54,471 nt of DNA. Origin: an uncultured Anaeromyxobacter sp. Its GTDB lineage: Bacteria > Myxococcota > Myxococcia > Myxococcales > Anaeromyxobacteraceae. The notes below the pieces were generated by a model. That model saw only the letters and a list, made by a program, of their open reading frames with translations, did not search any database and had not been told where the DNA came from. Both the position numbers and the translations under genes were made by a program. The stretch's first letter is position 1, and every line of letters begins with the position of its first letter. Below are positions 7,904 to 37,389 of this stretch, piece after piece. The stretch is taken from NCBI GenBank assembly GCA_903904005.1, contig CAIVAR010000020.1, forward strand, positions 1-54,471, read 5' to 3'.

Positions 7904-8707
7904 ATGACGGGACGACCGGTCGGCGAGAGCGAGGACCGGGACATCCTGTCGGTCGAGGGGCTTTCGCTCTCCTTCGGAGGGCTGGCCGCACTCACGCTTG
8001 TGGACCTCTCAGTCCGGGCCGGGTCGGTCACCGGGATCATCGGCCCGAACGGCGCGGGAAAGACGAGCCTCCTCAACTGCATCTCCGGCTTCTACAGGCC
8101 GCAGCGGGGGCGCGTGACCTTCGACGGCAAGGACGTGACCCGCGTCGCCCCCGACCGGCGGGCCGGGCTGGGCATCGGGCGCACCTTCCAGAACGTGGCC
8201 CTCTTCGAGGGCATGAGCGTCCTCGACAACGTGAAGCTGGGCGCCCACACCCGGCTCTCCTCGGGGATCCTCTCCACCATGGCCTTCACCCCGAGTGCAC
8301 GTCGCGAGGAGCTGCGGCTGCGCGAGGAGGTGGAGAACGAGGTGCTCGACTTCCTGGAGATCGAGCACCTGCGCCACCGCACGGTGGGGAGCCTGGCCTA
8401 CGGCCTGCAGAAGCGGGTCGACCTGGCCCGGGCCCTGGCCATGCGCCCGCGCATCCTGCTGCTCGACGAGCCGGTGGCCGGCATGAACGAGGAGGAGACC
8501 GAGGACATGGCCCGCTTCATCCTCGACGTCCGGGAGGAGCGGGGCGTGACCATCGTGCTCATCGAGCACGACATGGGCGTGGTCATGGACCTCTGCGACC
8601 GCATCGCGGTGCTCTCCTTCGGGGAGCGCATCGCGCTGGGCTCGCCCGACGAGATCCGGCGCGACCCCGAGGTGATCCGGGCCTACCTGGGCGAGGAGGC
8701 GGCGTGA
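7904..8707 (+). CDS. livG: Branched-chain-amino-acid-type ABC transporter ATP-binding protein LivG
   Basis: One of two ATPases of a Liv/HAAT-family importer. 267 residues with Walker A GPNGAGKTS (about residue 46), an AYGLQKRVDLARAL signature region and Walker B ILLLDEPVAGMN, followed by IEHDMGVVMDLCDRI, which is typical of LivG rather than LivF. The start is the ATG at 7904 because GGAAGGAG lies four bases upstream; longer upstream frames lack this support. The last codon overlaps the GTG of livH. It is the first gene of a tightly packed 13-gene run. The substrate may be a carboxylic or aromatic acid rather than leucine, given the acyl-CoA synthetase five genes downstream. Confidence 0.92.
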   Translation: MTGRPVGESEDRDILSVEGLSLSFGGLAALTLVDLSVRAGSVTGIIGPNGAGKTSLLNCISGFYRPQRGRVTFDGKDVTRVAPDRRAGLGIGRTFQNVALFEGMSVLDNVKLGAHTRLSSGILSTMAFTPSARREELRLREEVENEVLDFLEIEHLRHRTVGSLAYGLQKRVDLARALAMRPRILLLDEPVAGMNEEETEDMARFILDVREERGVTIVLIEHDMGVVMDLCDRIAVLSFGERIALGSPDEIRRDPEVIRAYLGEEAA

Positions 8708-9603
8708 GCGAGGGGCTCGTCCACCTCCTCCAGCTGCTCGTGTCCGGCGTGGTCACCGGCGGCATCTACGCGCTCGTGGCCATGGGGTTCGTGGTGGTCT
8801 ACAAGGCCACCCGGGTCATCAACTTCGCCACCGGCGAGTTCATGATGCTCGGCGCCTTCTTCGCCTGGACGGCGATGAGCGCGGTGCAGGCCCCCTTCGT
8901 GGTGGCGCTGCTGGTCGCGGTGGCGGCCTCGGCCCTGCTGGGGATGGCCACCGAGCGGCTGGTGCTCCGGCCCCTGCTCGGCCAGCGCACCATCTCGGTC
9001 ATCATGGTGACCATCGGGCTCGCCGCCATCTTCAAGGGGCTGGCCCAGATCGCCTGGTCGGGCGACTACCGGTCCTATCCGGCCATCTTCCCGCGGGCCC
9101 CCATCGAGCTCGGCCCCATCCTCCTGCCCTCGCGCCAGTTCTACCCGTTCCTCATCGCCGTGGGCGCCATCGCGCTGGTGGGGCTGGGCTTCCGCTTCAC
9201 CCGCACCGGCGTCGCCATGCGGGCCACGGCCGACGACCAGATGGCCGCCTTCGGCATGGGCATCGACATCCGGCGCATCTTCTCCCTCTCCTGGAGCCTG
9301 GCCGCCATGACCGCGGCCGTGGCCGGGATCGTGGTCGGCATCATCGGCGGGATCAGCCCGCAGCTCGGCGCCATCGGGCTGCGCACCTTCCCGGTGGTGA
9401 TCCTGGGCGGGCTCGACAGCATCGGTGGCGCGCTGGTGGGGGGCGTGATCATCGGCGTGCTCGAGAACCTGGCCGGCGGCTACGTCGACCCGCTGCTCGA
9501 CGGCGCATCGCTGAAGGAGGTCGTGCCCTTCGTGGTGCTGGTCTTCACGCTCATGGTGCGCCCCTACGGCCTCTTCGGCACGCGGGAGGTGGAGCGGCTC
9601 TGA
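8704..9603 (+). CDS. livH: Branched-chain-amino-acid-type ABC transporter permease LivH
   Basis: Inner-membrane permease, 299 residues, with about eight hydrophobic spans. The N-terminal GGIYALVAMGFVVVYKATRVINFATGEF stretch (residues 18-45) is diagnostic of LivH, and GLRTFPVVILGGLDSIGGALVGG near residue 225 carries the conserved EAA-like loop. A GTG start overlaps the livG stop by four bases. It pairs with LivM to form the translocation channel. Confidence 0.92.
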   Translation: MSEGLVHLLQLLVSGVVTGGIYALVAMGFVVVYKATRVINFATGEFMMLGAFFAWTAMSAVQAPFVVALLVAVAASALLGMATERLVLRPLLGQRTISVIMVTIGLAAIFKGLAQIAWSGDYRSYPAIFPRAPIELGPILLPSRQFYPFLIAVGAIALVGLGFRFTRTGVAMRATADDQMAAFGMGIDIRRIFSLSWSLAAMTAAVAGIVVGIIGGISPQLGAIGLRTFPVVILGGLDSIGGALVGGVIIGVLENLAGGYVDPLLDGASLKEVVPFVVLVFTLMVRPYGLFGTREVERL

Positions 9604-9619
9604 CCGCCCCGGCACCCCC

Positions 9620-10663
9620 GTGATCATCGGCAACCACAAGGAGAGCTACGCCTCGGACGAGGCCATCTTCCGGACCCCGGCCACCCGCGCCTGGATGGGG
9701 ATCGCGGCGGTGGCCGCGCTGGTCTTCCCCTTCGTCGCCGGCGACTACCTGCTCTACCTGGCGAACCTCATGGCGGTGCTGGCGCTGGGGGCGCTCGGGC
9801 TCAACATCCTCATCGGCTTCACCGGGCAGATCTCGCTCGGCCACGCCGCCTTCATGGGGGTGGGCGCCTACGCCACGGCCATCCTGGCCTCCCGCTTCGG
9901 GCTCCCCTTCTGGATCTCCATCCCGGCGGGCGGCGCGCTGGCCACCGGCGCCGGCATGGTGGTGGGGGCGCCGTCGCTGCGCATCAAGGGACTCTACCTG
10001 GCCATCGCCACCCTGTCGGCCCAGGTGATCTTCGAGTGGATCTTCACCAACTGGACGTCGGTGACCGGGGGCATCCGCGGCCTCAACGTGGCGCCGGCCT
10101 CGATCGCCGGCTTCCGGCTCGACACCGACGAGCGGATCTACTTCCTCATCGTCGGGGTCACCGTCGTCCACTTCCTGCTCGCCACCAACCTGCGCCGCTC
10201 GCGCTGGGGGCGGGCCTTCGTGGCGGTGCGCGACCGGGACGTGGCCGCCGAGATCGTGGGCGTGAACCTCTTCCGCACCAAGATCCTGGCGTTCATGGTG
10301 TCCTCCTACTACGCGGGGATCGCCGGCGGCCTCTGGGTCTACTTCACCAAGGTGGTGACGCCGGAGACCTTCCCGCTCTCCCTCTCCATCCAGTTCCTGG
10401 CCATCGTCATCGTGGGCGGGCTGGGCTCCATCAAGGGCACCGTCTACGGCACGGTCTTCATGACGCTGGTGCCGGAGCTGCTCAAGGCCGGCACCGGCCT
10501 GGCCCGCGTCGTCTGGCCGACCGCGCAGTCGTACCTCTTCCCGCTGCGCGACGTGGTCTTCGGCCTGCTCATCGTCGTCTTCCTGATCTTCGAGCCCCAC
10601 GGGCTCGCCGAGGTGTGGAACCGCGTGAAGCGCTTCTTCTCGCTGTGGCCGTTCGAAAAGTGA
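9620..10663 (+). CDS. livM: Branched-chain-amino-acid-type ABC transporter permease LivM
   Basis: Second membrane subunit of the importer, 347 residues. It shows the LivM signature LGLNILIGFTGQISLGHAAFMGVGAY (about 59-85), a central YLAIATLSAQ segment, and the C-terminal AIVIVGGLGSIKGTVYG coupling region. It begins at a GTG 16 bases after livH. The N-terminal 30 residues before the first membrane span are hydrophilic. The C terminus ends in a basic tail (RVKRFFSLWPFEK), probably cytoplasmic. Confidence 0.9.
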   Translation: MIIGNHKESYASDEAIFRTPATRAWMGIAAVAALVFPFVAGDYLLYLANLMAVLALGALGLNILIGFTGQISLGHAAFMGVGAYATAILASRFGLPFWISIPAGGALATGAGMVVGAPSLRIKGLYLAIATLSAQVIFEWIFTNWTSVTGGIRGLNVAPASIAGFRLDTDERIYFLIVGVTVVHFLLATNLRRSRWGRAFVAVRDRDVAAEIVGVNLFRTKILAFMVSSYYAGIAGGLWVYFTKVVTPETFPLSLSIQFLAIVIVGGLGSIKGTVYGTVFMTLVPELLKAGTGLARVVWPTAQSYLFPLRDVVFGLLIVVFLIFEPHGLAEVWNRVKRFFSLWPFEK

Positions 10664-10682
10664 AACGAAGGAGGAACCCCGC

Positions 10683-11861
10683 ATGAAGCACACGATCCGA
10701 CGCTCCGCCCTGCTCCTCGCCGCCCTGATCGGGCTCTCCCCCGCCGCCCGCGCCGCCGACGACGTCGTCACCGTGGGGGCCTGCCAGCCCATCACCGGAC
10801 GCTTCGCCTTCGCCGGCATCGCCATCAACGCCGGCCTCCAGGACTACCTGAACCTGGCCAACGAGAAGCAGCTCGTGAAGGGCAAGAAGTTCAACTACGT
10901 GTACGAGGACTCCGGGTACGACACCGAGCGCGCCGTGGCCTGCTTCAAGCAGATCATGGCCAAGCACAACCCGGTCATCATGTACGGGGAGTCGACCGGG
11001 CTCGGCAAGGCCATCGCCCCCGAGCTGAACTCCCGCTACAAGGTGCTCTACGCCTCGGCCTCGTTCTCCAGCGAGCTGGCCGACCCCAAGACCCACCCCT
11101 ACTCCTTCATCTCCGGGCCCACCTACTCGGACATGTTCGGCGTGCTCCTCGACTACATCGCCCGCAACAAGGGGGCGGCCAGGCCCAAGGTGGCCTTCTT
11201 CTACAGCGACACCGAGTTCGGCAAGGACCCCATCCCCTTCGCGCGCAAGCGGGCCGCCGAGCTGGGCATCGACGTGGTCAGCGAGATCGTCACCAAGGCC
11301 GGCGCCGTCGACGTGACGAGCGAGGTCCTGCAGCTCAAGAAGACCAACCCCGACTACGTGATCTTCCAGGGCTACATCCTCTCCCCCATCATCGAGGTCA
11401 TCCGCGCCACCAAGGACTTCGGCCTGAAGACCAAGTTCATGGGCACCTTCTGGTCGATGGACAAGGGCATCATCGAGAAGCTCGGGCCGGACGCCGAGGG
11501 CTACATGGGCGTCAACCCCTACGCCTACTTCTACGACGAGTCGGCGCCCGGCATCGTCGCCATGCGCGCCTGGAACCAGAAGGCCCACCCGGACGTGAAG
11601 TACCAGCCCAACTCCTACATCCAGGGCTGGTTCACCGGGATGGTCTACGTGGAGGCGGTGAAGCGCGTGGTGGCGTCGGGCAAGCCGGTCACCGGCGAGA
11701 ACCTGGCCGCCGTCCTCGACACCATCAAGGACTGGGACACCGGCGGCGTCACCGGCAAGGTCACCTTCGTGAACCACAAGGCCGGCGTGGGGCGCGTCTA
11801 CCGGGCCAACGCGGCCAAGGGCATCTTCGAGCCGGCCTCCGACTGGATCTACTCGAAGTGA
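10683..11861 (+). CDS. Periplasmic substrate-binding protein of the Liv-type ABC transporter
   Basis: Type I periplasmic binding protein (Peripla_BP_6 family), 392 residues. A cleavable signal peptide is visible: basic KHTIRR, a hydrophobic LLLAALIGL core, and AARA as a probable cleavage site near residue 24. The mature protein starts with VTVGACQPITGRFAFAG, the usual first strand and ligand loop. GESTG (about residue 103) and the VAFFYSDTEFGKD hinge-domain strand follow. A strong AAGGAGG-like sequence precedes the ATG. Its stop overlaps the livF start. The ligand cannot be deduced; proteins of this subgroup bind amino acids, aromatic acids or dicarboxylates. Confidence 0.88.
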   Translation: MKHTIRRSALLLAALIGLSPAARAADDVVTVGACQPITGRFAFAGIAINAGLQDYLNLANEKQLVKGKKFNYVYEDSGYDTERAVACFKQIMAKHNPVIMYGESTGLGKAIAPELNSRYKVLYASASFSSELADPKTHPYSFISGPTYSDMFGVLLDYIARNKGAARPKVAFFYSDTEFGKDPIPFARKRAAELGIDVVSEIVTKAGAVDVTSEVLQLKKTNPDYVIFQGYILSPIIEVIRATKDFGLKTKFMGTFWSMDKGIIEKLGPDAEGYMGVNPYAYFYDESAPGIVAMRAWNQKAHPDVKYQPNSYIQGWFTGMVYVEAVKRVVASGKPVTGENLAAVLDTIKDWDTGGVTGKVTFVNHKAGVGRVYRANAAKGIFEPASDWIYSK

Positions 11862-12661
11862 ACCCGCCGCTCCTCCACGTCAACAACCTGGAGGTGGTCT
11901 ACCACCACACCGTCCAGGTCCTGAAGGGGCTCTCCCTCTCCGTGCCCGAGGGCGCCATCGTGGCGCTCCTCGGGTCGAACGGGGCCGGGAAGACCACGAC
12001 CCTGAAGGCGATCTCCGGCCTGCTCCCGCTCGAGGACGGGGAGATCGTCGACGGTCAGATCGCCTTCCGTGGAGCCTCCATCGCCGGGAACCTGCCCCAC
12101 CGCATCGCGCAGGACGGGCTCTTCCAGGTGATGGAGGGGCGGCGCATCTTCGAGCACCTCACGGTGGAGGAGAATCTGGAGGCGGCCACCTACGCCCGCA
12201 AGGGCGGGGTCGACCTGGGCGAGGCCCTGAGGAAGGTCTTCGCCTACTTCCCGCGGCTGCGCGAGCGTCGCAAGCAGCTGGGCGGGTACCTCTCGGGGGG
12301 AGAGCAGCAGATGCTCGCCATCGGCCGCGCGCTGGTGGCGGGCCCGTCGCTCCTGCTCCTCGACGAGCCCTCGCTGGGGCTCTCGCCGCTGCTCGTGCAG
12401 GAGATCTTCCGCATCATCGAGGCCATCAACCGGGACGAGAAGGTCTCCATCCTGCTCGTCGAGCAGAACGCCCGCATGGCGCTCGGCATCGCCAGCCACG
12501 CCTACATCATGGAGAACGGCAAGGTCGTGCTCGACGGGCCGGCCGCCAGGCTGCGCGAGGACCGCGACGTGCAGGAGTTCTACCTGGGCAGCCGGGGCGG
12601 GGCGCAGGCCAGCTACCGGAACGTGAAGCACTACCGGCGGAGGAAGCGTTGGCTCTCATGA
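11858..12661 (+). CDS. livF: Branched-chain-amino-acid-type ABC transporter ATP-binding protein LivF
   Basis: Second ATPase of the importer, 267 residues. Walker A GSNGAGKTT (about residue 39), an LSGGEQQMLAIGRAL signature and Walker B LLLLDEPSLGLSP are intact, followed by LLVEQNARMAL, which is the LivF-specific form of the H-loop neighbourhood (Q for H). A 25-residue basic C-terminal tail (YRNVKHYRRRKR) extends beyond the usual family end. The GTG start and the TGA stop each overlap the adjoining genes by four bases, indicating coupled translation with the binding protein and the acyl-CoA synthetase. Confidence 0.92.
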   Translation: MNPPLLHVNNLEVVYHHTVQVLKGLSLSVPEGAIVALLGSNGAGKTTTLKAISGLLPLEDGEIVDGQIAFRGASIAGNLPHRIAQDGLFQVMEGRRIFEHLTVEENLEAATYARKGGVDLGEALRKVFAYFPRLRERRKQLGGYLSGGEQQMLAIGRALVAGPSLLLLDEPSLGLSPLLVQEIFRIIEAINRDEKVSILLVEQNARMALGIASHAYIMENGKVVLDGPAARLREDRDVQEFYLGSRGGAQASYRNVKHYRRRKRWLS

Positions 12662-14463
12662 CCGGGCCCGCCGACACCCTCCCCAAGCTCCTCGCCGAGC
12701 GGGCCGCCCTCCACCCGGACGCGGTGGCGCTGCGGGAGAAGGAGTACGGCATCTGGCAGCGGGTGACCTGGCGCGGCTACCTCGACCACGTGCGCCGGGC
12801 CTGCATGGGCTTCACCGCGCTCGGGCTCGTGCCGGGCGACAAGGTGGCCATCCTCTCCGAGAACCGTCGCGAGTGGCTCTACGCCGAGCTGGCCGCCATG
12901 GCGGCCGGGGCGGTGGGCGTGGGCGTCTACCCGACCAGCCCCTCGAACGAGGTGCAGTACGTGCTCGCCCACTCGGGCGCCACCATCGTGGTGGCCGAGG
13001 ACCAGGAGCAGGTCGACAAGATCCTGGAGGTGGGCGACCAGCTCCCGGCGGTGCGCCACGTCGTGGTGCCCGAGACGAAGGGGCTGCGGAGCTACAAGGA
13101 CCCGCGCCTGCTCTCCTGGGAGGAGCTCGAGGCGCGAGGGGAGCGTCTCGCCGCGGAGCGCCCGGGCCGCTTCGAGGAGCTGGTGGCCGCCACCCGCGCC
13201 GACGACGTGGCCTTCCTCATCTACACCTCGGGCACCACCGGCTTCCCCAAGGGAGCCATGATCTCCCACCGCAGCATCCTCGGGCAGGCCCGCGCCGCCG
13301 CCGAGGCCACCGGCATCACGGGGACCGACACGGTGGTCTCCTACCTGCCGCTCTGTCACGTGGCCGAGCAGATCTTCTCGGTCTACCTGCCGCTCCAGCT
13401 GGGCATGACGGTGAGCTTCGCCGAGGGCATCCGCACCATCCAGGAGGACCTCCGGGAGATCGCACCCTCGGTCTTCCTGGGGGTCCCGCGCATCTGGGAG
13501 AAGATGCAGGCCGGCATCCAGGTGAAGATCCAGGAGACCGGCCCCCTGCGCCGGCGCATCTTCGAGCGCGCCATCGAGCGGGGTCGGCGGCTCACCCGCC
13601 AGCGCCTCTCCGGCCAGCCGATCGGGGCCGTCGACCGGCTCCTCTCCGGCCTCGACTACCTGCTCGTCCGGCGCGCCCTGCAGAACTTCGTCGGCCTGCG
13701 GCGGGCCCGGGCCACCTTCTCGGCGGCTGCCGCCATCTCGCCGGACGTCCTCCTCTTCTTCCACGCCATGGGCATCGCGGTGCGGGAGGGGTACGGCATG
13801 ACCGAGTGCACCGGCTTCTCCTTCGTCCAGCGCGAGGGGGAGGTCCGGCTGGGAACGGTGGGGCGCCCCATCCCCGGGCTCGAGTTCCGCCTGGCCGACG
13901 ACGGCGAGCTCCTCAAGCGGGGCGAGACGGTCTTCCTCGGCTACTTCCGGGACGAGAAGGCCACCGCCGAGGTGCTCGAGGGGGGCTGGCTCCACACCGG
14001 CGACGTCGCCGTCCTCGATCCGGACGGCCAGCTGCGCATCGTCGACCGCAAGAAGGCCATCTTCGTCACCTCGGGGGGCAAGAACGTCTCCCCGTCGCTG
14101 GTGGAGAACGCACTCAAGGTCTCCCCCTACATCAAGGAGGCGGTGGTCCTCGGCGAGGGGGAGAAGTTCGTCTCCGCGCTGGTGCAGATCGACTTCGAGA
14201 ACGTGGGACAGTGGGCGACGGAGCGGAAGCTCGCCTATACCAACTTCCGCAGCCTCACGGCGCTCTCCGAGGTGCAGGAGCTCGTCGCCGCCGAGGTGGA
14301 CCGGGCCAACCAGGGGCTGGCGCCGGTGGAGCAGGTGCGGAAGTTCCGCCTGCTCGAGAAGGAGCTCGACCACGACGACAACGAGGTCACCGCCACCATG
14401 AAGGTCCGCCGCAAGACGATCTACGAGAAGTTCGCCCCGCTCATCCGGGAGATCTACCAGTGA
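12658..14463 (+). CDS. Long-chain (or related) acyl-CoA synthetase, AMP-forming
   Basis: Adenylates a carboxylic acid and joins it to coenzyme A. 601 residues. The adenylation motif YTSGTTGFPKGA lies at about 191-202, GYGMTEC (A5) near 379, the hinge and ATP-contact residues in GGWLHTGDVA and RIVDRKKAIFVTSGGKNVSP, and a C-terminal KVRRKTIYEKF region close to the catalytic lysine motif. Overall layout resembles FadD15/ACSL-type enzymes with the LPLCHVAEQ linker. I chose the ATG overlapping the livF stop; an in-frame TTG nine bases earlier is the alternative. Embedded in the Liv operon, it would activate the imported acid, although chain length is unknown. Confidence 0.87.
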   Translation: MTGPADTLPKLLAERAALHPDAVALREKEYGIWQRVTWRGYLDHVRRACMGFTALGLVPGDKVAILSENRREWLYAELAAMAAGAVGVGVYPTSPSNEVQYVLAHSGATIVVAEDQEQVDKILEVGDQLPAVRHVVVPETKGLRSYKDPRLLSWEELEARGERLAAERPGRFEELVAATRADDVAFLIYTSGTTGFPKGAMISHRSILGQARAAAEATGITGTDTVVSYLPLCHVAEQIFSVYLPLQLGMTVSFAEGIRTIQEDLREIAPSVFLGVPRIWEKMQAGIQVKIQETGPLRRRIFERAIERGRRLTRQRLSGQPIGAVDRLLSGLDYLLVRRALQNFVGLRRARATFSAAAAISPDVLLFFHAMGIAVREGYGMTECTGFSFVQREGEVRLGTVGRPIPGLEFRLADDGELLKRGETVFLGYFRDEKATAEVLEGGWLHTGDVAVLDPDGQLRIVDRKKAIFVTSGGKNVSPSLVENALKVSPYIKEAVVLGEGEKFVSALVQIDFENVGQWATERKLAYTNFRSLTALSEVQELVAAEVDRANQGLAPVEQVRKFRLLEKELDHDDNEVTATMKVRRKTIYEKFAPLIREIYQ

Positions 14464-15617
14464 CCCACCGCGACGACGGCCGGCCGGTGCACGCCGCCAT
14501 CGTGGGGTGGGGGAAGTGCCTGCCGCCCGCGGTGCTCACCAACCGCGACTTCGCCACCTTCCTCGAGACCGACGACGAGTGGATCGCCTCGCGCACCGGC
14601 ATGCGGGAGCGGCGCATCTCCCACGTCCCGCTGGGCGAGATCATCCACGTGGCGGCGGCCCGGGCGCTGGCCTGCGCCGGGATGTCGGCCGACGAGCTCG
14701 ACCTCATCGTGGTGGGGAGCACGCTCGGCGACGAGGTCTGCCCCAACGTCTCGTCCGGCACCCAGAAGCGGCTCGGGGCCCGCAACGCCGCGGTGATGGA
14801 CGTGAACACCGCCTGCACGAGCTTCCTCTACGGGCTCTCCACGGCCACCGCGCTCATCCGCACCGGCGTGGTGAAGAACGCGCTGGTGGTGGGGGCGGAG
14901 GCCCCCTCCCCCTTCATGGACTGGGAGAACCGCAACGTGGCGGTGCTCTTCGGCGACGGCTGCGGCGCCGTGGTGCTGAAGGCCTCCACGAAGGAAGAGG
15001 GGGTGCTCGCCGAGCGGCTCGGCTGCTACGGCGAATCCCGCTCCATCCTCGACATCCGCGGCGTCGGCGCCCGCTACGCCAACCAGGGCATCCCGGGCGG
15101 CTACTCGTCCTGGAGCTTCGACGGGCAGGAGATCTTCAGGAAGGCCGTCATCGGGATGACCCAGGCCAGCCTGGAGGCGCTCGGGAAGAGAGGGCTCGCC
15201 ATCGGCGACGTCGACCTCATGATCCCCCACCAGGCCAACCAGCGGATCATCGACGCGGTGGGCAAGCGGGTCGGCATCGATCCCGGCAGGGTGTTCGTGA
15301 ACGTGCAGAAGTACGGGAACATGTCGGCGGCCACCGTCCCGGTGGCCCTCGTGGAGGCGCTCGAGGAGGGACGGGTGAAGCCCGGGGCCACGCTGCTCTT
15401 GCCCGCCTTCGGCGGCGGCCTCACCTGGTGCGCCCACGTGGTCCGCTGGGGCGAGCGCACCACCCCCCTCGGCACGAGCAGCGTCTCGCTCTCCCCCTGC
15501 GACCGGACCGGGCTCGAGCTCGTCAACGACCTGCGGGCCCGCCGGGCCCGCTACCACCAGGCGGCCGCCCCCTTCATCGAGGCGGCCCGCCATCTCCTCG
15601 ACGAGCCAGCGGCGTAG
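14460..15617 (+). CDS. 3-oxoacyl-ACP synthase III (FabH)-like ketosynthase with C-terminal extension
   Basis: Thiolase-fold condensing enzyme that would join an acyl-CoA starter to malonyl-ACP or a related extender. 385 residues. The Cys-His-Asn catalytic set is present: Cys119 in NTACTSF, His257 in IPHQANQRI and Asn287 in KYGNMSA. The N-terminal DDEWIASRTGMRERR motif near 38-52 is typical of FabH. About 55 residues beyond the normal C terminus (331-385) form a charged, arginine-rich extension not found in standard FabH (317-330 residues). The GTG start overlaps the acyl-CoA synthetase stop. Placement next to a synthetase and transporter suggests a specialised starter substrate rather than housekeeping fatty acid initiation. 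Confidence 0.82.
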   Translation: MTHRDDGRPVHAAIVGWGKCLPPAVLTNRDFATFLETDDEWIASRTGMRERRISHVPLGEIIHVAAARALACAGMSADELDLIVVGSTLGDEVCPNVSSGTQKRLGARNAAVMDVNTACTSFLYGLSTATALIRTGVVKNALVVGAEAPSPFMDWENRNVAVLFGDGCGAVVLKASTKEEGVLAERLGCYGESRSILDIRGVGARYANQGIPGGYSSWSFDGQEIFRKAVIGMTQASLEALGKRGLAIGDVDLMIPHQANQRIIDAVGKRVGIDPGRVFVNVQKYGNMSAATVPVALVEALEEGRVKPGATLLLPAFGGGLTWCAHVVRWGERTTPLGTSSVSLSPCDRTGLELVNDLRARRARYHQAAAPFIEAARHLLDEPAA

Positions 15618-15635
15618 CAAGTATCATCCCCTGCC

Positions 15636-16832
15636 ATGTCCATCCCAGCCCCCACCGTCGGCGAGCTCGTCCCCTCCGTGCGCCTGCTCCTCGGCCCCGG
15701 CCCCAGCCCCGTCCACCCGCGCGTCTACCGCGCCATGACCACGCCGCAGCTCGGCCACCTCGACCCGCAGTTCCTGGGGATCATGAACGAGGTGCAGGCC
15801 CAGCTCCGCTTCGCCTTCCAGACCGCGAACCCCTTCACCATCGCGGTGTCCGGCACGGGCTCGGCGGGCATGGAGGCGGCGCTCGTCAACGTGATCGAGC
15901 CGGGCGACACCGTCGTCATCTGCGCCGCCGGCGTCTTCGGCAACCGCATGGCCGACATCGTCGGGCGCTGCGGGGGCAAGCTGGTGAAGCTCGAGGTTCC
16001 CTGGGGTCAGGTCTTCCCCCACGCCACGATCGAGGAGGCCCTGAAGAAGCACGCCCCCGTGAAGGCGGTGGGCATCGTCCACGCCGAGACCTCCACCGGC
16101 GCGCAGCAGCCCATGGACGGGCTCGGCAAGCTCTGCCACGCGCACGGCGCGCTGCTCGTCGTCGACACCGTCACGTCGCTCGGCGGCGTGTCGGTCACGG
16201 TCGACGACTGGGAGGCCGACGCGGTCTACTCCGGCACCCAGAAGTGCCTCTCCTGCCCGCCCGGGCTGGCCCCCTTCACCCTCTCCCCGCGGGCCCTCGA
16301 CGCGGTGCGCGCGCGCAAGACCAAGGTGCAGTCCTGGTACCTCGACGCCGGGATGGTCGCGGACTACTGGGCCGAGGGGAAGCGCGTGTACCACCACACC
16401 GCCCCCATCTCCATGGTCTACGCGCTGCGCGAGGCGCTCCGGCTCGTGTGCGAGGAGGGGCTCGAGCCCCGCTTCGCCCGCCACCGCCGGAATGCCGCCG
16501 CCCTCATCTCCGGCTTCCGCGCCCTGGGCGCGCAGCCCCTCTCCTCCGACGGGGAGCGGCTGCCCTCCCTCAACGCCGTCACCCCACCCGAGGGGGTCGA
16601 CGAGGCCGCGGTCCGCAAGTACCTGCTCGCCGACCACGACATCGAGATCGGCGGCGGCCTGGGGCCTCTCGCCGGCAAGCTCTGGCGCATCGGCCTGATG
16701 GGCTACGGCTCGAGCCAGCAGAACGTGGTCACCGTCCTCGCCGCCATCGAGCAGGGCATGCGCAAGCAGGGCAAGGCGGTCGCGCCCGGCACCGCGGTCA
16801 GCGCCGCGCTGCGCTCCTACGACGGCGCCTGA
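15636..16832 (+). CDS. Class V aminotransferase, alanine/serine-glyoxylate type
   Basis: PLP enzyme that probably transaminates glyoxylate to glycine using alanine or serine. 398 residues. It opens with LLLGPGPSPVHPRV, typical of alanine-glyoxylate aminotransferases. SGTGSAGMEAAL (72-83) is the phosphate-binding region, VVDTVTSLGG holds the PLP-pyridine aspartate (D177), and SGTQKCLSCPPG places the Schiff-base lysine at 203. The gene sits 10 bases before glcD, so glycolate oxidase would feed it glyoxylate directly. Phosphoserine aminotransferase-like or purine-catabolic (ureidoglycine-glyoxylate) specificity cannot be excluded. Confidence 0.85.
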   Translation: MSIPAPTVGELVPSVRLLLGPGPSPVHPRVYRAMTTPQLGHLDPQFLGIMNEVQAQLRFAFQTANPFTIAVSGTGSAGMEAALVNVIEPGDTVVICAAGVFGNRMADIVGRCGGKLVKLEVPWGQVFPHATIEEALKKHAPVKAVGIVHAETSTGAQQPMDGLGKLCHAHGALLVVDTVTSLGGVSVTVDDWEADAVYSGTQKCLSCPPGLAPFTLSPRALDAVRARKTKVQSWYLDAGMVADYWAEGKRVYHHTAPISMVYALREALRLVCEEGLEPRFARHRRNAAALISGFRALGAQPLSSDGERLPSLNAVTPPEGVDEAAVRKYLLADHDIEIGGGLGPLAGKLWRIGLMGYGSSQQNVVTVLAAIEQGMRKQGKAVAPGTAVSAALRSYDGA

Positions 16833-34520: not shown

Positions 34521-35474
34521 GTGAAAATCCTGCTCACCGGACCGTTCGGCAACGTCGGCTCGCACGTCATCCCGGAGCTCCTCCGCGAGGGGCACCAGGT
34601 CCGGGCCTTCGACCTCGAGACCCCGGAGACCCGGAAGGTGGCGAAGGAGTTCGGCAAGAAGATCGAGACGGTCTGGGGCGACGTCCGGGAGGCCCGCGCG
34701 GTGGCCCTCGCCGTCGAGGAGACCGACGCGGTGCTCCACCTGGCCGCCGTGATCCCGCCCGGCTCCGACGAGGACCCGGCCCGCACCCGTACCGTCAACG
34801 TGGACGGGACCGCCAACGTGGTGAAGGCCGCGCAGGGGCGCTCGCGCAAGCCGAAGCTCCTCTTCATCTCCACCTTCGACGTGCACGGCCACACCCAGAA
34901 GAACCCGCCCCCCCGGAAGGTGACCGATCCGGTGGTGGCCTCCGACGTCTACACGGAGAGCAAGATCGCCGCGGAGGCGCTGGTTCGCGAGTCGGGGCTG
35001 GAGTGGTGCATCTTCCGGCTCGTCGACGTGCCCATCATCGGGCTGCGCGACCCGCATCCGATCATGTTCGAGATCGGGCTCGACAACCGGATCGAGTCGA
35101 TCCACGCCGACGACGCCGCCACCGCCATCGCCCGCAGCCTGCGCACCCCGGCCGTCTGGGGACGCACCCTCTTCATCGGTGGGGGCAAGTCCTGCCAGCT
35201 CACCTACCGGGAGTTCCTCCGGCGGATGCTCGGGTCCATGGGGATGGAGATGCTGCCCGAGGAGGCCTTCACCGACGCCGAGTACGCCACCGACTGGGTG
35301 GACAGCACGGAGTCACAGGAGTTGCTTCGCTACCAGCGCCGGACCTTCGACGACATCACCGGCGACATCGCCAAGTGCCTGGGCTGGAAGAAGGCCTTCG
35401 TCCCCATGGCGAGCTCCATGGTGAAGAAGAAGATGCTCGAGATGTCGCCCTACTGGAAGCAGCGCCAGAAGTGA
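34521..35474 (+). CDS. Extended short-chain dehydrogenase (NAD-dependent epimerase/dehydratase family)
   Basis: 317 residues. N-terminal Rossmann motif TGPFGNVGSHV (6-16), an acidic DLETPET loop after strand 2 favouring NAD(H) over NADP(H), LHLAAVIPP near 72, and catalytic Tyr/Lys in YTESK (144-148). FISTFDVHG holds the equivalent of the catalytic Ser/Thr. The C-terminal half (about 225-317) is divergent. The fold class includes sugar epimerases and 3-beta-hydroxysteroid dehydrogenases; its position eight bases after the SRD5A-like gene makes a hydroxysteroid-type substrate worth testing, but motifs alone do not show it. A GTG start is used. Confidence 0.78.
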   Translation: MKILLTGPFGNVGSHVIPELLREGHQVRAFDLETPETRKVAKEFGKKIETVWGDVREARAVALAVEETDAVLHLAAVIPPGSDEDPARTRTVNVDGTANVVKAAQGRSRKPKLLFISTFDVHGHTQKNPPPRKVTDPVVASDVYTESKIAAEALVRESGLEWCIFRLVDVPIIGLRDPHPIMFEIGLDNRIESIHADDAATAIARSLRTPAVWGRTLFIGGGKSCQLTYREFLRRMLGSMGMEMLPEEAFTDAEYATDWVDSTESQELLRYQRRTFDDITGDIAKCLGWKKAFVPMASSMVKKKMLEMSPYWKQRQK

Positions 35475-35492: not shown

Positions 35493-36254
35493 CTACTCCC
35501 CCGCGGCGCCGCGCCGGGGCTCGACGATGTGCGGCTTGGCGAGGCGGCCCGGGAGGATCTTGGGCGGCCGCGCGGCCGGGCCGGGCGGGATGGCGTCGTC
35601 CGGCGGGTTGGTCGCGAAGACGCGGTTGACGAGCGGCGCCATGAGCCCGAGGCTGGTCGCCGCCAGCTTGCGCAGCGGGTTGCGCGAGGCGTCGCCGTTG
35701 GGAAGCGGCTGGCTCCAGGCCTTCCCGAGCAGGTCCATGTACATCCCGACCGTCTGGCCAGCGGTGGCGAAGTCGAGGGTGGAGAGGACCTCGTCGGCCA
35801 GGCCGAAGGGCATGGAGAGCATGATGGGGCCGCGCATGTACTCGGTGGCCCAGACGCCGTTGGTGAAGTTCATGGCGCGGGCCTGCCCGGGGCCGACCCA
35901 GACGCGGCTTCCCGGCGTGTAGACCCGCTTCTCGAACTGCCCCTCGCCGAAGTAGTGCATCTCGCCGTCGATGACGGTGTCCCAGAAGCCGACGGCGTGG
36001 CGCCCCGAGTGCCCCTCGGACCCGATGGGGGTGCCCCAGATCATGAGGTACTCCATCGAGGAGGCGAAATAGAGCTTCATCTGGATCATCGCGCCGCCGG
36101 CGATGCTGTACATCCACGGCTGCGAGCGGTCGATCCGGCCCGGGTAGGCATCCTCCCAGGCGTCGGCGATGGCATCGAACATCTCGGGCTTGGGCTTGCC
36201 AATGCCCTGCATCGAACACTCGTGGATGACGTCGGCGTCGAAGATGTAGTCCAT
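35493..36254 (-). CDS. ERG2/sigma-1-receptor family protein (C8 sterol isomerase-like)
   Basis: 253 residues with a region (about 45-175) that aligns without large gaps to human sigma-1 receptor and fungal ERG2. Matching segments include EYLMIWGTPIGSEGHSGR, WDTVIDG, YTPG, TEYMRG, PFGLADE and STLDF. Asp92 and Glu138 align with human sigma-1 Asp126 and Glu172, the acidic pair needed for ligand binding in the receptor and for isomerase activity in ERG2. The N-terminal transmembrane helix of the eukaryotic proteins is missing, and the last 75 residues are proline-rich and unrelated. The start is ATG 36254. The gene converges on the SDR gene, with 18 bases between the stops. Real substrate is unknown. 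Confidence 0.83.
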   Translation of the reverse strand: MDYIFDADVIHECSMQGIGKPKPEMFDAIADAWEDAYPGRIDRSQPWMYSIAGGAMIQMKLYFASSMEYLMIWGTPIGSEGHSGRHAVGFWDTVIDGEMHYFGEGQFEKRVYTPGSRVWVGPGQARAMNFTNGVWATEYMRGPIMLSMPFGLADEVLSTLDFATAGQTVGMYMDLLGKAWSQPLPNGDASRNPLRKLAATSLGLMAPLVNRVFATNPPDDAIPPGPAARPPKILPGRLAKPHIVEPRRGAAGE

Positions 36255-36309
36255 GTCCAAGGCTCCGGTGGGGTGGGAGGGTTGGGAGAAGGGGAAGAGA
36301 TTACAACGG

Positions 36310-36328
36310 TTCGACGCAGCGTGTCGAA
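36310..36328. other. Short hairpin in the intergenic region before the ERG2-like gene
   Basis: TTCGAC and GTCGAA are exact reverse complements flanking a seven-base centre that can extend the stem to eight pairs with a three-base loop. It lies between two minus-strand genes (36388-37263 and 35493-36254). It could be a weak terminator for the first or an operator for the second. No convincing U-tract follows on the minus strand. Confidence 0.3.
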
Positions 36329-36387
36329 GCCCCCCGAGGAAATTCAGACCCGTCCGGGGCGTGGGGCGGGGGAGTCCGTGGTCGGGT

Positions 36388-37263
36388 TCACCAGGTGAAG
36401 AAGTAGGTGAGGAGGCCGCCCACCATGAACACCGTTCCCTCGGCGGCAACGGGGTCGAGGGAGGTCTCGTACTCCACGGCCAGGACCACCGTCTTGGCCC
36501 GGGTGAGGAACCTGCCGGCGGTGAACTTGAGCAGCGAGCCGACGTTCTGGTTCTGGATGCTCCAGCTCGTCTTGTCCTGGACGGCCACGTAGAACCAGGC
36601 CGGAAGTCCGACCGTGAGGGTGGGCTTGAACTGGATGGTGTTCACCGGCTTGTAGGTGCCCAGGTTGCCGAAGGACTTCTGCCAGTTGATCTCCACCGAC
36701 AGGGCCACGGTCGACCAGAGCTTGAAGGCCACGACGTAGACCGGCTCGATGATCCAGGGCTGCCCGACCGCGGAGTTGCTCGCGGTGTTCCACTGCAGCT
36801 CGAGGCCGACCGCCTGCCGGATGCCCGAGACCGAGAAGAAGCCCCACATGAGGGTGGTGGTGAGGCTCGCGAAGCCGGAGACCGAGGACCCGCCGCCGGA
36901 GGGCCAGAAGGTCTCGAGCGGCGCCTCGATGCGCAGCGCGAACTCCCGCTCGGCACCGAAGGTGAACACCGGCTTGAAGGTGAGCTCGCCCATGGACGCG
37001 CCGGCGGCCTTCTGGGTCCACTCGTACTTGGTCTGCAGCATGTTCCGCTCGAAGACGGGGGCGTCGACCAGCTCGAGGACGTCGAGCATGTGGCGGAAGC
37101 CGTGGTCCCTGTCCTTCCGCTCACGCATCTCCTCCTCGGCCCGATCATGGGCGTCCTCCCACGCCTCCTTTTGCTGGGGGGGCTCCTGGGCCAGCACCGG
37201 CGGGGCGGCGAGCAGCGCGGCGACGAGCAAGATCCACCCGGGTGCGCCTTTCCTTCGGTTCAT
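36388..37263 (-). CDS. Putative outer-membrane beta-barrel protein of unknown function
   Basis: 291 residues. A signal peptide (MNRRKGAPGWILLVAALLAAPPVLAQ) is followed by a charged, possibly helical segment (about 28-60, rich in E/R/D). About ten amphipathic strands with aromatic girdles (for example ALSVEINWQKSFG, AWFYVAVQDKTSWS) follow, and the last strand ends in YFFTW, compatible with barrel insertion. It resembles uncharacterised proteobacterial barrels of the transporter type rather than a named porin. GGGAG lies seven bases before the ATG. It precedes the ERG2-like gene on the same strand but is 133 bases away. Confidence 0.65.
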   Translation of the reverse strand: MNRRKGAPGWILLVAALLAAPPVLAQEPPQQKEAWEDAHDRAEEEMRERKDRDHGFRHMLDVLELVDAPVFERNMLQTKYEWTQKAAGASMGELTFKPVFTFGAEREFALRIEAPLETFWPSGGGSSVSGFASLTTTLMWGFFSVSGIRQAVGLELQWNTASNSAVGQPWIIEPVYVVAFKLWSTVALSVEINWQKSFGNLGTYKPVNTIQFKPTLTVGLPAWFYVAVQDKTSWSIQNQNVGSLLKFTAGRFLTRAKTVVLAVEYETSLDPVAAEGTVFMVGGLLTYFFTW

Positions 37264-37325
37264 CGGAGATCTCCCGGGCTCGACTCTAGGCCAACCGGGC
37301 GAGGAGAGGGAGCTTTCGCGAAGGG

Positions 37326-37343
37326 GTGCCCCCCGATGGGCAC
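37326..37343. promoter_or_regulatory. Inverted repeat upstream of the asparagine/aspartate operon
   Basis: GTGCCC and GGGCAC are exact reverse complements separated by six bases, forming an 18-bp dyad 46 bases before the aspA ATG. Spacing and size suit a dimeric regulator in the promoter region of aspA-ansB-porin. It is GC-rich, so chance occurrence is possible. Confidence 0.3.
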
Positions 37344-37389
37344 TCGCCAATCAGTGAACGGGGCGGCATCGTTTCGCCCGGAGGATTCC

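Follow-up and report, generated by a model that had tools for sequence, protein, structure and literature searches.

The ERG2-like gene and its neighbourhood

The DNA analysed here (the window) is the whole stretch of 54,471 nucleotides, and its genome is close to the MAGs named uncultured Anaeromyxobacter (L002-L004). On the minus strand at 35493..36254 it carries an open reading frame of 253 amino acids plus stop codon, which encodes an ERG2/sigma-1 receptor family protein (PF04622) as judged by profile, alignment and AlphaFold model. The borders given for this frame in a preliminary description are exact, and every motif quoted there was found in the translation. Two genes on the plus strand converge on the ERG2-like gene. 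These are a steroid 5alpha-reductase family gene (SRD5A, PF02544; 33757..34512, 251 aa, Pfam score 181 bits) and, 8 bases away, a gene for an extended SDR of the 3beta-HSD/epimerase type (extSDR; 34521..35474, 317 aa; Pfam Epimerase 80 bits, 3Beta_HSD 74 bits). By profile, therefore, the steroid-type neighbours that had been proposed for the ERG2-like gene are indeed present.

Just upstream of the ERG2-like gene and on the same strand lies a gene for a protein without Pfam match (36388..37350), whose homologue is found by synteny at the same place in three congeners. Between these two genes of the window there is a gap of 133 bp (36255..36387). The congeners L003, L004 and L044 possess here a second extended SDR gene (SDR2), right upstream of ERG2, which is missing both from the gap and from the rest of the window. 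At 8000-16832 the window also contains putative genes for an ABC transporter of the branched-chain amino acid type, an acyl-CoA-synthetase-like gene and a FabH-like ketosynthase gene; only the last was checked by profile (beta-ketoacyl-ACP synthase III, 347 bits).

The SRD5A protein matches the crystallised PbSRD5A (7c83) over its full length with 305 bits (E=4e-90) and an enoyl-CoA reductase with 56 bits only. PbSRD5A reduces progesterone; in the human enzyme all three residues of the QEY motif (Gln, Glu, Tyr) matter, and the Gln is needed (PMC7815742). In the SRD5A of the window the catalytic Glu and Tyr are kept and the Gln is replaced by Met. The idea that this exchange marks a special motif was dropped because the SRD5A of G016, a genome in which no ERG2 was found, likewise has Met at this position. 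G016 belongs to another genus of the same family and carries SRD5A together with an extended SDR (59%) at a contig edge (L065:5784-6786); since the pair sits at the contig end, an ERG2 gene could be cut off there.

The SDRs score about equally with sugar epimerases and with 3beta-HSDs, so the label "steroid" is given to them by their context. Homologues of extSDR (47-49% identical) adjoin ERG2 in G083, with the gene order SRD5A, classical SDR, ERG2 and extended SDR, and in three Chloroflexota genomes; the ERG2 proteins beside them are about 35-66% identical to that of the window. Steroid-type SDRs stand beside ERG2 in most relatives: a 3beta-HSD-like extSDR adjoins it in 8 loci and an HSD-like classical SDR in 11. 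The classical SDR resembles hydroxysteroid dehydrogenases (105-115 bits with the 7beta-HSDH model, which is under that model's cut-off). The closest plasmid SDR, from Sphingobium and annotated as 3-beta hydroxysteroid dehydrogenase, is only 30% identical, lies in a different setting and was set aside.

Some relatives have other neighbours. In a member of the Chloroflexota (G470, L045:1669-2763) an F420H2-dependent quinone reductase domain (PF04075) is in frame with the ERG2 domain, which is likely a fusion; in L047 the PF04075 gene and the ERG2 gene are separate neighbours. In L009:2318-6287 and L010 (Dehalococcoidales/Chloroflexi MAGs) genes for an iron-sulfur protein, an NrfD protein and a molybdopterin oxidoreductase lie downstream of the SDR-ERG2 pair.

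Family membership and translation start

The 253-aa protein is a true member of the ERG2/sigma-1 family. The Pfam model ERG2_Sigma1R (PF04622), a search suggested in the preliminary description, scores 149 bits (curated cut-off 21; 151 bits in the genome search) and matches 24/24 aligned relatives as well; no NCBIfam model matched the window protein. Human sigma-1 (5hk1) is hit with E=1e-27 and Xenopus sigma-1 with E=1e-24. The long matches to sigma-1 described before are homologous stretches but not identical ones, the identity being about 31-34% over the domain.

The first 50 residues contain no hydrophobic stretch, and the protein begins at the domain. In the congener L003 there is no other in-frame start codon upstream of the ERG2 start (window equivalent 36254). 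The absence of the N-terminal membrane helix, already noted from the sequence, is therefore real, and a mis-called start which conceals such a helix is ruled out. Compared with a congener the gene is under purifying selection (dN 0.045, dS 0.29, dN/dS about 0.15). A viral, phage or plasmid origin was considered and rejected, as no match occurred among viral contigs, phages and plasmids.

Fold and key residues

An AlphaFold2 model built from 24 relatives (mean pLDDT 85.7) shows a cupin-like beta-barrel capped by C-terminal helices, in close superposition on sigma-1. From this superposition Asp92 and Glu138 would be expected to point into the barrel cavity. With VIA-align the best matches are sigma-1 receptors (5hk1: Z 25.9, 1.5 A, 185 residues), followed by small cupins with Z of about 12. 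A C-terminal helix of the model (193-212) is only mildly hydrophobic and could rest on a membrane.

The alignments pair Asp92 with Asp126 of sigma-1 and Glu138 with Glu172, as originally proposed, and in addition Tyr69 with Tyr103 (residue numbers in the 5hk1 chain exceed those of UniProt by 4). All 30 rows examined have counterparts of Glu138 and Tyr69, and all except L061 and L062, two related actinobacterial sequences, also have that of Asp92. Among the positions examined, sigma-1 Glu102, Tyr103, Gly115, Gly118, Arg119, Glu172, Tyr173, Arg175 and Phe184 are kept in all bacterial rows. L061 and L062 (G874 and G1125, from the phylum of an Actinobacteria MAG) form a divergent branch of the ERG2 family, in which the Glu is kept and the Asp126 counterpart is absent, and belong to a conserved gene group with two P450s.

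Distribution and phylogeny of bacterial members

The ERG2 family was found in 4/4 genomes of the window's genus and in 0/20 others of its family. It occurs in 9/195 genomes of Myxococcota and is similarly infrequent in the phyla of a Dehalococcoidia MAG (G203; 5/301), a Treponema MAG (G204; 3/296) and an Actinobacteria MAG (G201; 5/396). Although rare in all four phylum samples, the gene does not stand alone as a eukaryotic one within a single bacterium, for its clade extends over at least four phyla. In a tree of 30 rows, in which sigma-1 sequences were the only eukaryotic rows (no fungal or plant ERG2) and long branches meet, the window protein falls within a clade of 18 exclusively bacterial sequences (support 99/96), with the sigma-1 sequences outside. 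Myxococcota, Chloroflexota, Spirochaetota and Actinomycetota all contribute scattered members to this clade, and this mixture of four phyla points to horizontal transfer of the gene among bacteria. Three bacterial members (L040, L049 and L050) are placed nearer to sigma-1, and the two spirochaete proteins among them have a clear C-terminal membrane segment. In a genome of only 1.1 Mb, an open frame of 414 aa (L043, G177:C20:4925-5389) includes an ERG2-like domain that has diverged strongly (56 bits, 21% identity). A full-text search of the open-access literature found no function for any bacterial ERG2/sigma-1 protein.

Sterol synthesis genes and co-occurrence with SRD5A

Neither squalene epoxidase (PF08491) nor squalene/oxidosqualene cyclase (SQHop_cyclase, PF13243) was found in the host genome, which is 98% complete, or in its three congeners (G000-G003), and de novo sterol synthesis was therefore rejected for the host. 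For the same reason, the role as C8-C7 isomerase in sterol synthesis that the preliminary description had suggested for testing is unlikely, and the ERG2-like protein is probably not a biosynthetic enzyme of the ERG2 type. A C8 isomerase appears in two publications about sterol synthesis in bacteria, and one of them calls it EBP. Most other carriers of ERG2 lack one or both sterol genes, and many, e.g. Dehalococcoidales and Treponema MAGs, have neither. Both genes are present in G083, G196 and G197, on a different contig from that of ERG2. In two Polyangiaceae/Myxococcales MAGs (L066:4608-8063, L067:12187-15600) squalene epoxidase and oxidosqualene/squalene cyclase are united in one protein of 1138-1152 aa with the SE domain and the N and C domains of SQHop_cyclase; a geranylgeranyl-reductase-like gene adjoins.

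SRD5A is present in 4/4 ERG2 carriers of the family and, with G016 as the one exception, in 1/20 of its non-carriers (p=5e-4, relatedness ignored), and in 8/9 carriers and 40/186 non-carriers of the phylum (p=6e-5, likewise ignoring relatedness), the latter representing about five lineages. Because SRD5A is common in Myxococcota (strong matches in 48/195 genomes) and related genomes are not independent, this co-occurrence is modest when taken alone. In Dehalococcoidia, spirochaete and some myxobacterial carriers (G199, G200, G203, G202, G205, G100 and G198) SRD5A is found away from ERG2, at a second locus where SDR2 is its neighbour. No SRD5A was seen in the carriers G201 and G204, and G196 showed a weak match only.

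A possible role in the modification of scavenged steroids

A host without sterol synthesis nevertheless carries a member of this family beside steroid-type genes, and the ERG2-like protein therefore probably helps to reshape environmental steroids. There is slightly better than an even chance, in our judgement, that it is a soluble or peripheral steroid double-bond isomerase which acts together with extSDR and SRD5A. The analysis establishes the family, the fold, the conserved residues, the lack of sterol-synthesis genes and the recurring gene association. We infer three things here, namely that the protein is a catalyst, that its substrate would be a steroid and which double bond would be moved. 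ERG2 enzymes shift a sterol double bond through proton transfer. In the window protein a steroid, taken up from the environment and not made by the cell, would enter the hydrophobic barrel, the part that binds progesterone and DHEA sulfate in Xenopus sigma-1 (PMC11224282), and Glu138 and Asp92 could there shuttle a proton between ring carbons.

The proposed route comprises four steps. An SDR would convert a Delta5-3beta-hydroxysterol to the Delta5-3-ketone, and the ERG2-like isomerase would turn this into the Delta4-3-ketone, the form which SRD5A needs as substrate. SRD5A would then yield the 5alpha-3-ketone and an SDR finally the 5alpha-stanol. Taken alone, the specific Delta5-to-Delta4 shift by the ERG2-like protein is a tentative assignment that we would rather bet against. 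Somewhat less probable again is the complete scheme, a new pathway in lineages of anoxic habitats from scavenged Delta5-sterols to 5alpha-stanols, in which a protein of the ERG2/sigma-1 fold serves as 3-oxo-Delta5-to-Delta4 isomerase between extSDR and SRD5A. The formation of 5alpha-stanols from sterols in anoxic lakes, waters and sediments is a long-known geochemical transformation. If the scheme is true, the genes described here would be candidates for stanol formation in anoxic waters and sediments.

Several observations count against an isomerase, i.e. the carriers without SRD5A, the modest weight of the co-occurrence, the Gln-to-Met exchange in SRD5A and the epimerase likeness of the SDRs. 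Sigma-1 also speaks against it, as a protein with the same fold and acidic pair that binds ligands without known catalysis, and so does the binding of progesterone by Xenopus sigma-1, for which the Glu172 counterpart is dispensable. The window protein could be a non-catalytic steroid- or lipid-binding protein like sigma-1, which would hold scavenged steroid and pass it to the reductase and the dehydrogenase or would act as a steroid sensor. We regard this as unlikely. In favour of it, the closest proteins of solved structure are sigma-1 receptors, both barrel and acidic pair are retained, and Xenopus sigma-1 binds progesterone (Kd about 1 uM) and DHEA sulfate in its barrel (PMC11224282). However, the Glu172 counterpart is not required for the binding of progesterone by this receptor (PMC11224282), whereas Asp92, Glu138 and Tyr69 are conserved almost absolutely in bacteria; this conservation and a gene set made up of enzymes fit catalysis better.

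Somewhat more doubtful is an isomerase or related enzyme which acts, together with the SDRs and a reductase of the SRD5A fold, on a non-steroid lipid such as a polyprenoid, a carotenoid, a quinone or a fatty acyl chain. The PF02544 fold does include the very-long-chain enoyl-CoA reductase, but the neighbour is much closer to SRD5A (305 vs 56 bits) and retains the steroid-binding Glu and Tyr of the latter. That several ERG2 carriers have neither of the sterol genes tested, and that some Chloroflexota have an F420-dependent reductase as partner, in one case fused to the ERG2 domain, would suit such a lipid; on the other side, every ERG2 enzyme that has been characterised acts, to our knowledge, on sterols. 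A classical ERG2, the C8-to-C7 isomerase of de novo sterol synthesis, would agree with the family membership, the conserved residues and the sterols made by other Myxococcota, including the three carriers with both sterol genes, but is largely refuted for this organism and very improbable, given that the host and its congeners lack both required genes and most other carriers one or both, and that ERG2 lies on another contig even where these exist.

Comparison with known systems

The steroid isomerase favoured here can be set beside four known systems. With the sigma-1 receptor (SIGMAR1; 5hk1, 8w4b) the window protein shares the fold, the Asp/Glu pair, the Tyr and the hydrophobic barrel, in which the Xenopus receptor binds progesterone. 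In contrast to the receptor, it has no N-terminal transmembrane helix, is only 31-34% identical and is encoded among metabolic enzymes; in the pocket Trp89 is changed to Ala, Phe107 to Trp, Tyr120 to His and His154 to Val. For the sigma-1 receptor, a drug target of unclear ancestral chemistry, a compact bacterial relative without N-terminal anchor, located among steroid-type enzymes, would offer a tractable system for the action of this fold on steroids.

Fungal ERG2, which was compared through the family and not by direct alignment, belongs to the same Pfam family and has the conserved acidic residues, and by analogy the proton-shuttle chemistry is likely shared. It differs in that the window protein lacks the N-terminal membrane anchor and its host the sterol-synthesis genes. 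The SRD5A of the window resembles PbSRD5A (7c83) over the full length and shares its catalytic Glu and Tyr; it differs by the Met at the Gln position of QEY and by its linkage to ERG2 and SDR genes.

The scheme proposed here has the same kind of intermediates as the gut route from cholesterol to coprostanol (IsmA; PMC12667688), and the proposed order of steps agrees as well: oxidation of the 3-OH group, a Delta5-to-Delta4 shift, Delta4 reduction and reduction of the 3-ketone. The product in the gut is 5beta, while the window encodes a reductase of the 5alpha type, and a separate protein of the ERG2 fold could perform the shift. Strictly speaking, the window protein is thus neither a sigma-1 receptor, as the membrane helix is absent, nor an ERG2 of sterol synthesis, as the pathway is absent, and it represents a new, anchor-free bacterial variant of the ERG2/sigma-1 family with a likely steroid-modifying role.
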